From: Rhodoferax sp.
GTDB lineage: Bacteria > Pseudomonadota > Gammaproteobacteria > Burkholderiales > Burkholderiaceae_C
Direction: 5' to 3'
Assembly (NCBI RefSeq): GCF_011391645.1
Contig: NZ_JAABQC010000005.1
Coordinates: 1-48,779 of the forward strand
DNA length: 48,779 bases
Shown: piece after piece, positions 243 to 16,113 of the stretch
How the letters are laid out: every line of letters starts with the position of its first letter
How positions within the stretch are numbered: position 1 is the stretch's first letter
The notes under the pieces: model-generated
What the model was told of the DNA's origin: nothing
Databases searched by the model: none
The model's input: the letters and a program-made list of their open reading frames with translations, nothing else
Program-made: the position numbers and the translations under genes

Positions 243-1613
243 TTAAAAGACAATTTCACGCACCATGGCATCCACCAGCCGACGTGCAGCGCCCTGATGG
301 GATTGCGCAAAGCGCTTGGCGGACTGGCGGGCAGTTGCCAAGGTGTCGTCACAGAGTAACTCACCCAGGCCGGCAACCGCCTGGCCCAGGTCTGACACCC
401 GCAGCGCCGCACCGGCTGCAAGCGCCTGCTCGGCCGCCTCCAAAAAGTTAAAGGTGTGCGGCCCCATCACCACCGGGCAGCCGCAGGCAGCGGCTTCGAT
501 CAGGTTTTGCCCGCCCAGCGGCTCGAAGCTGCCGCCCAGCAGTGCCACATCAGCCAGGCCGTAATACAGCGCCATTTCCCCCAGCGAGTCGCCGAGCCAG
601 AACAACGGCTTCCCGGCGGCCGCTGCAACCGGCCCGCCCTGCCCCCAGCCGCTGCGCCGCTGCACGGCAAATCCATGCGACTCGATGAGCGCGGCCACTT
701 CGTCAAAGCGCTGCGGGTGGCGCGGCACGATCAGCCACTGCACTTCTTCCGTGTCAGACATGGCGAGACCATCAGGCCATCGCGGCGAGGGCGCCGCTCC
801 CGCAGACTCCCCAACCTTTGCAGGTGGCCCGCCCGCGGGCTGATCGCGCCTGGCTTGTCTCAAAATCTCCAGCAACGCCTGCTCTTCGCCTTCGCGCGAA
901 CTGGCAAACATGACCACGGGCTTGACCAGTTGCGCCCGCCAGGCTTTGCCGGCGGCGAGTTGGCCCGCGTCAGGGGCAGCATCAAATTTGAGGTTGCCCA
1001 TCACACCCTGAACCCTGGCACCCAATGACTGCAGCCGCTGCGCGTCCAGCGCAGTTTGCGCCCAGACCGCGCGGAGCGCAGCGAAAGTCGGTCGCGCCAG
1101 CCAGCCCAGGCGCTGTGCCCGCCTCAATGATTTTTCGCTGAGCCGCGCATTGACCAGCACCAGCGGAACCCCCATTTGCTGGCAACCCGCCACCAGATTG
1201 GGCCACACCTCGGTTTCCACCAAAATGCCAAGGTTGGGCTTGAAATGGCTCAGAAAGCGCTGCACAACCGCCGGTGTGTCCCACGGCTGCCAGGCCTGCA
1301 GGTCGCCCTCTTTCAAAAGCGTCAAACCCTCTGCTCGGCCGGTTGCCGTGCCATGGGTGAGCAACAGGCGCATTTGCGGCAACTGTTCACGCAATGCGGC
1401 AAGCAGCACCGCTGCGGCGCGGGTCTCGCCCAGTGACACCGCGTGAAGCCAGACCGTGGGACCATCATGCGTTGGCACTGGATGGGTGTAGCGGCCAAAG
1501 CGCTCGTCAATGAAGTGACCGTAAACCGGTTCCAGCACGCTGCGCCGCCGCAATTTGCGTTTGAGCAGCGGCTGCACCAGCCACATCAGGCAGGAATAAA
1601 GCCAGCGCGTCAT
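243..1613 (-). CDS. waaA: 3-deoxy-D-manno-octulosonic acid (Kdo) transferase WaaA
   Basis: WaaA transfers Kdo from CMP-Kdo to lipid A precursor at the cytoplasmic face of the inner membrane, the first step of LPS core assembly. The 456-residue protein starts with a short hydrophobic anchor (about 4-17). It carries the family signature HAVSLGE near residue 57, whose Glu (about 63) is the expected catalytic base, ETEVWPNL near 133, ASSREGEE near 237, VPRHPQRF near 296 and the GGSFEPLGGQN sugar-nucleotide loop. I chose the ATG at 1613, which overlaps the waaC stop as ATGA, over an upstream in-frame start inside waaC. The protein is about 30 residues longer than E. coli WaaA (about 425). The excess is a Gly/Ala/Pro-rich stretch around 257-279 that coincides with a REPIN-like palindromic element at 777-845. 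Last gene of the algC-waaC-waaA operon. Confidence 0.95.
   Translation of the reverse strand: MTRWLYSCLMWLVQPLLKRKLRRRSVLEPVYGHFIDERFGRYTHPVPTHDGPTVWLHAVSLGETRAAAVLLAALREQLPQMRLLLTHGTATGRAEGLTLLKEGDLQAWQPWDTPAVVQRFLSHFKPNLGILVETEVWPNLVAGCQQMGVPLVLVNARLSEKSLRRAQRLGWLARPTFAALRAVWAQTALDAQRLQSLGARVQGVMGNLKFDAAPDAGQLAAGKAWRAQLVKPVVMFASSREGEEQALLEILRQARRDQPAGGPPAKVGESAGAAPSPRWPDGLAMSDTEEVQWLIVPRHPQRFDEVAALIESHGFAVQRRSGWGQGGPVAAAAGKPLFWLGDSLGEMALYYGLADVALLGGSFEPLGGQNLIEAAACGCPVVMGPHTFNFLEAAEQALAAGAALRVSDLGQAVAGLGELLCDDTLATARQSAKRFAQSHQGAARRLVDAMVREIVF
777..845. repeat. REPIN-like inverted palindrome pair inside waaA
   Basis: Two hairpin units face each other. The left unit (777-800) has the stem GCGGCG-AGGG-CGCCGC flanked by ATC and CTCC. 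The right unit (819-845) reads TGCAGG followed by GCCCGC-CC-GCGGGC and GATC. The left unit is identical over 24 bases to one at 15078-15101, and the right unit resembles 15123-15149. The element is 69 bp, a multiple of three, so it keeps the waaA frame and encodes residues of about 257-279. The organisation (two REP-like hairpins in inverted orientation with a G-N-AGG lead) matches REPINs described in other proteobacteria. Confidence 0.75.
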
Positions 1614-15077: not shown

Positions 15078-15149
15078 CCATCGCGGCGAGGGCGCCGCTC
15101 CTACAACGGGTCAGGTACATCTTGCAGGAGGCCCGCCTCGGGCCGATGG
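15078..15149. repeat. REPIN-like inverted palindrome pair between argG and the reductase gene
   Basis: The left unit (15078-15101) has the hairpin GCGGCG-AGGG-CGCCGC; read on the minus strand it begins GTAGGAG and ends CGATGG. The right unit (15123-15149) reads TGCAGGA, then the hairpin GGCCCG-CCT-CGGGCC, and ends GATGG. The two units are therefore variants of one GNAGGAG-hairpin-CGATGG motif in inverted orientation, 21 bp apart. They sit between two convergent genes, the usual place for REP elements. A second copy lies inside waaA (777-845). Confidence 0.75.
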
Positions 15150-15153
15150 CTGC

Positions 15154-16113
15154 CTAACGCCCGAGGTATTGCCGGGCAATGGGGCGCACGGCCGATGCCT
15201 TGATGCCGAGCGAATCGAGGCCCGGGTGCTTGCCAGTGGCGACGTTGTCGACCTTCATTGATTCCAGGTTGTCCAGGCTCATCATTGGCTCGCCCGGGGC
15301 CATGCCCATCACGGTGGCCTGAAGCCGCGCTGCCCACGCCGGCAGCGGAATCACCAACCGGCCCATGCCGCCGCCCGTACCGCTGAGTTGTGCGGATATC
15401 TGTACCAACTGCTTCAGGGTCAGCACCTCCGGGCCAAAGGCCTCGATCACGCGCGGCGACGGCTGCGCGCTGGCACCGGACAGGCAGCGCACCACAGCCA
15501 TAGCCAAGTCTTCCACCCACACTGGCTGAAATTTGGCATCGGCGCCCGCCAGCGGCACCATCGGCAGCACCTTTTGCAGCTTGGCAAACATGTTCAAAAA
15601 TTTGTCACCTTCACCAAAAACCACGCTGGGTCGCAGGATGCTTAGATCGAACCCGGCCTGCGCTGCGTCCCCGGCGCTGCCGCCCATGGCCGCCTGCACC
15701 AGCACCGCCTCGCCCTCCCCCTTGCTGCGCAGGTACATGGACGGCGCCAGCGTGGGCTGCAGAGAATCTGCGCCCAGGGCACTGATGTGCACCACCTGAC
15801 CAACACCCGCGGCCAGACAGGCGTGCGCAATTTTTCGCGGCAAGGCCACGTGCGCGTGCTCGAAAGCCGCCTGCGTGCCGTGCAATATGGCAACCAGATT
15901 CACCAGCGCGTCATGCCCGGCCACTGCCTGCGTCAGGGCGGCCTCGTCATGCACGTCAATCTGCCGCACCGTGAGGCGGGGCAAATGCATGACGGCTTTG
16001 GCATTGATGGCCCGCCGCGTTGGTACGGTTACCTGCCAGCCCTCGCGCGCCAATTTTTCACACAGATGGGTACCAACAAAGCCGGTACCGCCTAAAACAA
16101 TGATTTTTTTCAT
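15154..16113 (-). CDS. NAD(P)-binding epimerase/NDUFA9-like reductase
   Basis: A 319-residue atypical short-chain dehydrogenase with the Rossmann signature VLGGTGFVGTHL (about 6-17). VHISALGADS is in the position of the catalytic Ser region, and YLRSKGEGE replaces the usual YxxxK segment, as in NDUFA9/complex I-like and YbjT-like proteins. SILRPSVVFGEGDKFLNMF is typical of that group. Its substrate is unknown. I chose the ATG at 16113 because the 28 upstream in-frame residues are unlike the family start. It precedes nothing on its strand and follows murB by about 46 bp. Confidence 0.85.
   Translation of the reverse strand: MKKIIVLGGTGFVGTHLCEKLAREGWQVTVPTRRAINAKAVMHLPRLTVRQIDVHDEAALTQAVAGHDALVNLVAILHGTQAAFEHAHVALPRKIAHACLAAGVGQVVHISALGADSLQPTLAPSMYLRSKGEGEAVLVQAAMGGSAGDAAQAGFDLSILRPSVVFGEGDKFLNMFAKLQKVLPMVPLAGADAKFQPVWVEDLAMAVVRCLSGASAQPSPRVIEAFGPEVLTLKQLVQISAQLSGTGGGMGRLVIPLPAWAARLQATVMGMAPGEPMMSLDNLESMKVDNVATGKHPGLDSLGIKASAVRPIARQYLGR

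Follow-up and report, generated by a model that had tools for sequence, protein, structure and literature searches.

Unrelated palindromic repeat families, among them an in-frame REPIN, in one loop of the Kdo transferase WaaA of Rhodoferax

Background

The Kdo transferase gene waaA (kdtA) is generally regarded as essential, and a palindromic repeat lying within its reading frame raises the question of how such an element could enter an enzyme of lipopolysaccharide synthesis and be kept there. The locus studied here lies in 48,779 nucleotides of Rhodoferax sp. DNA (NCBI RefSeq GCF_011391645.1, contig NZ_JAABQC010000005.1, positions 1 to 48,779; referred to below as the window). An earlier note on this DNA had proposed that a mobile palindromic element has become part of WaaA, and had likened it to the palindromic elements inside Rickettsia genes.

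Intragenic, in-frame REP monomers and dimers are described in PMC3733652: most of the inserts are dimers or groups encoding 20-30 residues, several non-rickettsial bacteria carry in-frame REP dimers, and X. campestris and X. oryzae have different REPs at about the same recB site. In the REPIN/RAYT system (PMC3116915), pairs of REPs in inverted orientation enclose a short spacer and are present in many copies, together with a REP-flanked RAYT gene. In this work we analysed the waaA insert, its repeat family, and the corresponding loop of WaaA across the genus.

Results and discussion

Structure of the element in waaA

The waaA gene is located on the minus strand at 243..1613 (start codon ATG at 1613-1611) and encodes a protein of 456 aa, recognized by Pfam Glycos_transf_N (E 4.8e-61) and about 30 residues longer than the E. 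coli enzyme, which we take to be 425 aa. The insert occupies 777..845 (minus strand, 69 bp = 23 codons), is in frame, has a length that is a multiple of three, and encodes WaaA residues 257-279 (DQPAGGPPAKVGESAGAAPSPRW), in agreement with the earlier note. In the sense of the gene, a left REP of 27 nt (GGCCCGAGGGCGGGCC type, 819..845, minus strand) on the 5' side is followed by a 14-nt spacer (805..818, minus strand), recognisably common to the waaA inserts of relatives, and by a right REP of 28 nt with the hairpin GCGGCG-AGGG-CGCCGC (777..804, minus strand) on the 3' side, the two REPs being in opposite orientation. This 27 nt + 14 nt + 28 nt layout is that of a REPIN. The element lies inside a gene and not in the extragenic location usual for REPINs, but such a location is not essential, as published intragenic cases show. 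Relative to the arms of its family (family c), 2/28 bases are changed in the right REP and 7/27 in the left REP. The GTAG tag found on the right arm of family c (TGTAGGAGCGG...), the mark of the GTAG superfamily (PMC3733652), is mutated in the window copy (TGCGGGAG).

A second member of family c is intergenic (15078..15149, plus strand), identified by sequence match to the core and by the family profile; the 24-bp identity between the two copies, pointed out previously, is real and falls at 15078-15101. When a family profile was trained with the waaA copy left out and the intergenic copy included, its matches in the window at E<=1 were these two elements: 777-846 (E 4.2e-10) and 15078-15157 (E 2.8e-15). 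The 19-bp core occurs twice in the window against 0.10 expected, and one of 100 shuffles also gave two copies. In predicted single-strand folding against dinucleotide shuffles, the waaA copy was no better than the shuffles (z -0.06) and the intergenic copy had z -1.20; the case for a palindrome therefore depends on the hairpin cores together with the repeat family and does not draw on folding energy.

The AlphaFold model of WaaA (53 sequences) has a mean pLDDT of 89.7, and its best fold match is the Aquifex WaaA structure 2xci (E 3.8e-19); the C-domain of Acinetobacter WaaA (4bfc) was also matched by fold, and both structures were matched by sequence too. Values of pLDDT below 50 are confined to residues 264-283 (numbering without Met), a stretch between helix 242-255 and strand 291-294. 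The insert, which the earlier note had suggested mapping on the Aquifex structure, thus falls in a predicted disordered loop, the one disordered stretch of an otherwise confidently modelled enzyme. The family-c REPIN stands in frame in the waaA loop between this helix and this strand.

Family c in the genome and the search for a RAYT

The genome from which the window is derived (G000; 2.74 Mb, 93% complete, 167 contigs) contains 11 exact copies of the 19-bp core, 17 at <=1, 20 at <=2 and 29 at <=3 mismatches, while the backward control gave none at <=1 and one at <=3 mismatches. The 17 copies at <=1 mismatch show that the core is repeated genome-wide, the many-copy state of a REPIN. Among 89 genus genomes, family c was found in 23 at <=1 mismatch (control zero in each), and five of the six reading frames of its consensus are open. 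In two regions of G088 (C1:314785-336094 and C14:207584-224641) family c REP copies are densely packed, in places about 1.8 kb apart.

A RAYT gene, which the earlier note had proposed to look for, was not found in G000 (93% complete) either by Pfam PF01797 or by RAYT protein search. The Y1_Tnp domain is present in 79/89 genus genomes and absent from G000. The one clear association is in G080, where a RAYT-like gene (L273; Y1_Tnp E 4.8e-10) has family c REPs on both sides. Among 13 Y1_Tnp stretches read with their flanks (L273-L285) it was alone in this; in a second stretch (L274) there is a single match to the left arm, and a weak one. The 20 stronger Y1_Tnp loci (L093-L112) all lack a c core. 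The nearest relatives of the G080 protein, 51-56% identical, are in G070, G023 and G089; the G070 relative (L281) has no c REP in its stretch. With no RAYT detected in this genome, we infer rather than observe that the element is mobile here.

One loop, at least four repeat families

waaA was found in 84 of the 89 genus genomes and 83 genes were used, that of G009 being dropped as its relatives were only 33-38% identical. The loop between the helix and the strand is 16 to 96 residues long, in a series that includes 17, 30, 38, 47, 52, 57, 70 and 96 residues, and it is exactly 30 residues in 51/83 genomes. The window's protein has 47 residues compared with 17 in G003, G089 and G064, which supplies the relatives without the insert residues that the earlier note had called for. 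The 17-residue loops of G089 and G064 (L230, L231) contain CCGCGATG, which resembles a REP end; judged by sequence, these may be deletion scars.

To survey the repeats, profiles were built from 29 copies of family a, 23 of family b and 28 of family c, none of them in waaA according to the lists checked, and were run on 163 waaA genes (83 genus and 80 named, 20 of the latter identical to genus genomes). The family c training set included the intergenic window copy and a copy in a second G000 gene, fcl (see below), so these two matches are not independent, whereas the c matches in waaA and in other fcl genes are. At E<=10 there were 84 matches of family a in 66 genes, 8 of b in 4 genes and 8 of c in 6 genes, with none outside the loop, which makes up 5.8% of the 247 kb of waaA searched.

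At E<=0.01, family c is in the loop of G000, G070, G088, G092 and G094, family b in G021 and G080, and family a in 24 genus genomes, 22 of which have 30-residue loops; in G082 family a lies on the opposite strand. Of 60 further named relatives, seven have family a at this threshold, an Acidovorax MAG among them (1e-12). For the remaining 29 loops of 30 residues the a score falls short of E 0.01, and a derivation from family a would be argued from length and position. Family a (GGCCTCTAGC..AAGCGC..AGCTAT) is itself abundant, with up to 274 copies per genome in 56/89 genus genomes (e.g. G023, G060; control zero). The fourth family, d, was recognized in G086, where its 27-bp pattern has 10 matches at <=3 mismatches, one of them in waaA (control 0); beside it is a worn family c element, known by its spacing and spacer with no c profile match. 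In G094 (L193) the right half of the c REPIN is doubled in frame, so that VGAAPSPRWP is encoded twice.

The idea that these inserts are an assembly chimera or a chance GC-rich similarity can hardly be entertained: the genome is indeed split over 167 contigs, but inserts stand at the same place in the assemblies of G070, G088, G092 and G094, the profile matches in waaA, those of family c included, are confined to the loop, and the controls of the family copy counts at <=1 mismatch were zero.

Two WaaA trees were built without the loop, one of 140 proteins (without L128, L131 and L142, none of which has an a, b or c match at E<=0.01) and a second, more careful one of 21 proteins. Genomes whose loop carries b, c or d, or is 17 residues long, fall into two supported groups of 4 and 7 (support 100/100 and 98/93 in the 21-protein tree) among genomes with 30-residue loops. 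A single clade of c carriers was rejected (AU p 5.7e-88, the group having been chosen after the first tree), while single clades of b carriers (p 0.155) and of 17-residue loops (p 0.173) were not. From the common position of the waaA c inserts and their recognisable spacer (AAGGCAGGnGACCC) we infer one gain of family c, followed by replacement or shortening; since the c carriers are not one clade, a single gain requires several later losses or replacements. Repeated gains may also have taken place, the deepest branch order of the trees being weakly set.

A second gene with the same two families

In G000, 18 of the 20 core copies at <=2 mismatches were surveyed for intragenic location (omitted were L019, which has no REP flanks, and one of two closely paired copies); eight open frames were read and seven of these scanned with Pfam. 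Two copies are in a Pfam-supported frame, one in waaA (between domains) and one inside the Epimerase domain of fcl (L336, G000:C105:2-811), where a single in-frame c REP lies near the gene start. A third (L017) is upstream of its Pfam domain. In G088, 40 of the 50 copies at <=1 mismatch were examined, the waaA copy excluded; eight have open frames of >=60 codons on both sides and one of these eight has a Pfam match in frame, to a thiamine phosphate synthase-like protein. At this locus (L320:2049-3218) the in-frame c REP is at residue 177 and the Pfam domain at 203-373, and the REP is upstream of or within the thiamine phosphate synthase-like gene.

The fcl gene is presumably GDP-fucose synthase-like, a name that we base on the Pfam Epimerase match and a motif known from such enzymes. 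Thirty-six such loci were read (the weak L344 and L346 were left out, and many further matches lie outside this set); the loop motifs, GHRGMVGSAIVR..L to TRTHAELDL, are present in 35/36 loci, giving 36 loops. Family c or b is inside six of them (L336, L337, L340, L349, L339, L345), with c in G000, G010, G092 (two copies) and one G094 copy, and b in G021 and G089; of these six loops, that of G000 had supplied one of the c training copies and the other five none. The remaining 30 loops are plain, 11 or 13 residues long, with no match. From the folds expected of these proteins, the WaaA and fcl loops would each come after helix 1 of a Rossmann-like domain.

A probable tolerated site for repeats

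We consider it probable (roughly three chances in four) that the waaA loop is a tolerated home, or safe site, which the REPIN entered once, in which its peptide is passive, and in which the other families have likewise been kept. A non-autonomous REPIN would have been moved by a RAYT since lost from, or not assembled in, this genome, and would have entered the loop in the ancestor of a group of Rhodoferax species. The insert could survive because its length preserved the reading frame, the family consensus is open in all but one of the six frames, and the site is a loop that is predicted to be disordered and lies outside the conserved core, so that the enzyme would tolerate 16 to 96 residues there. 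Through the same tolerance the unrelated families a, b and d would have been retained at this place in other lineages, and c later shortened, doubled or replaced, with selection at the loop filtering for in-frame, stop-free repeats. The peptide itself most likely serves as a passive spacer. Two observations go against plain tolerance: the c arms of G070, G088 and G094 have kept the consensus in genes that have otherwise diverged, and the prevalence of exactly 30 residues looks like a length constraint.

The first of these observations bears on a tentative alternative, which we think possible but doubtful, that certain helix-to-strand loops (waaA, fcl) are landing pads: palindromes would preferentially insert into, or exchange with, the palindromes already in the loop, the REP arms would be refreshed from the genomic pool, and unrelated elements would swap at one fixed site over long times. 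The presence of four unrelated families at one WaaA loop would fit it. So would the comparison of G070 with G088, in which 2/57 bases of the c arms differ and none of 383 equal waaA windows is as conserved, whereas waaA outside the arms is 74.5% identical (four-fold sites 63.5%); between G070 and G094 the arms again differ at 2/57 bases, with none of 390 equal windows as conserved. The spacers differ at 9/14 and 6/14 positions in these two pairs, and among the three species the four-fold sites changed in the arms are 0 of 15, 15 and 17. Synonymous change is thus resisted much more strongly in the arms of these three species than elsewhere in waaA. The window's copy has no such resistance: arm bases changed from the consensus (of 55) are 9 in G000, 10 in G092 and 22 in G086, and the seven c pairs that involve G092 or G000 have no unusual arm conservation, with 82 to 313 of about 400 windows as conserved. 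G092 is the nearest c carrier to G070 and yet has decayed, as an occasional refreshing of arms would allow. The c arms have therefore been held or reset in some lineages and have decayed in others, including that of the window. For family a the evidence is mixed. Its loop score rises with the number of copies in the genome (rho 0.59, n 55; with the profile source genomes removed, 0.53, n 51), but the correlation ignores ancestry and G010 is a clear exception with 230 copies and 7.8 bits. The loop DNA of seven family a genomes (21 pairs) is no more alike than other waaA windows; homogenisation of family a was rejected on this ground, and the idea of homogenisation now rests mainly on the three c species. 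Tracts of 25-30 bp are also short for gene conversion.

The second observation would be explained if a longer flexible loop improved the enzyme and selection kept whichever repeat provided it, since the 30-residue loop is fixed in 51/83 genus genomes and long loops are also present in Acidovorax, Variovorax and other named relatives. We find this unlikely, as many relatives have loops of 14-21 residues, the loop peptides of the different families have no similarity evident by eye, and the model gives the window insert no order. A role at the level of nucleic acid, through pausing of translation or an effect on mRNA stability by hairpins in the waaA transcript, agrees with the unchanged synonymous sites in the arms of G070, G088 and G094; it is quite improbable in view of a window copy that folds like its shuffles and has lost 9/55 arm bases, and of the decayed copies in G092 and G086. 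A tolerated site thus remains our preferred reading.

Relation to known systems

Proposals made for this locus can now be placed beside published repeats. That a mobile palindromic element is built into an LPS enzyme is supported, since relatives lack the insert residues and the core is repeated elsewhere in the genome. The likeness to the Rickettsia RPE, as these are described in PMC3733652, stands in so far as palindromic DNA is translated within a conserved protein; the present element differs in being a GTAG-type REPIN of a betaproteobacterium, and the case is less unusual than had been thought, with non-rickettsial in-frame REP dimers already known. The intragenic GTAG/CGTC REPs of that source resemble the waaA insert in being REP monomers and dimers translated in frame within genes, but the other genes affected there, which belong to one functional category, carry them at different sites. 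In the present genus one waaA loop is shared by four unrelated families, two of which are also in the loop of a second gene. Neither waaA nor a fucose gene is mentioned in the main text of PMC3733652.

With the REPIN/RAYT system (PMC3116915) the present family shares the inverted pair of REPs around a short spacer, the many copies and a REP-flanked RAYT (in the relative G080); the window's genome differs in having no detected RAYT. The copy studied here also differs in lying inside a gene: of the 1,067 commonest 16-mers in P. fluorescens SBW25, just 14 overlap genes. The BRE repeat of Bordetella and Comamonadaceae, with 4 copies in Rhodoferax ferrireducens and some copies wholly within coding sequences (PMC3110155), might by its description be our family b.

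Conclusions

With REP dimers translated in frame already published, and likewise a pair of different REPs at about the same place in recB, the window insert itself is of a known kind. What is new is that at least four unrelated families use one waaA loop, that two of them recur in another gene, and that the arms have persisted unevenly. Searches of the CC-licensed literature brought up no paper whose title or abstract concerns palindromic inserts in waaA, and no report of one loop serving several repeat families. The loop represents a way for mobile DNA to turn into protein sequence while leaving intact a gene held to be essential, and it provides a natural series of loop lengths at one site of one enzyme. 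With two genes hosting the same two families, target choice versus selection alone becomes a question that can be asked of short mobile palindromes in proteins.
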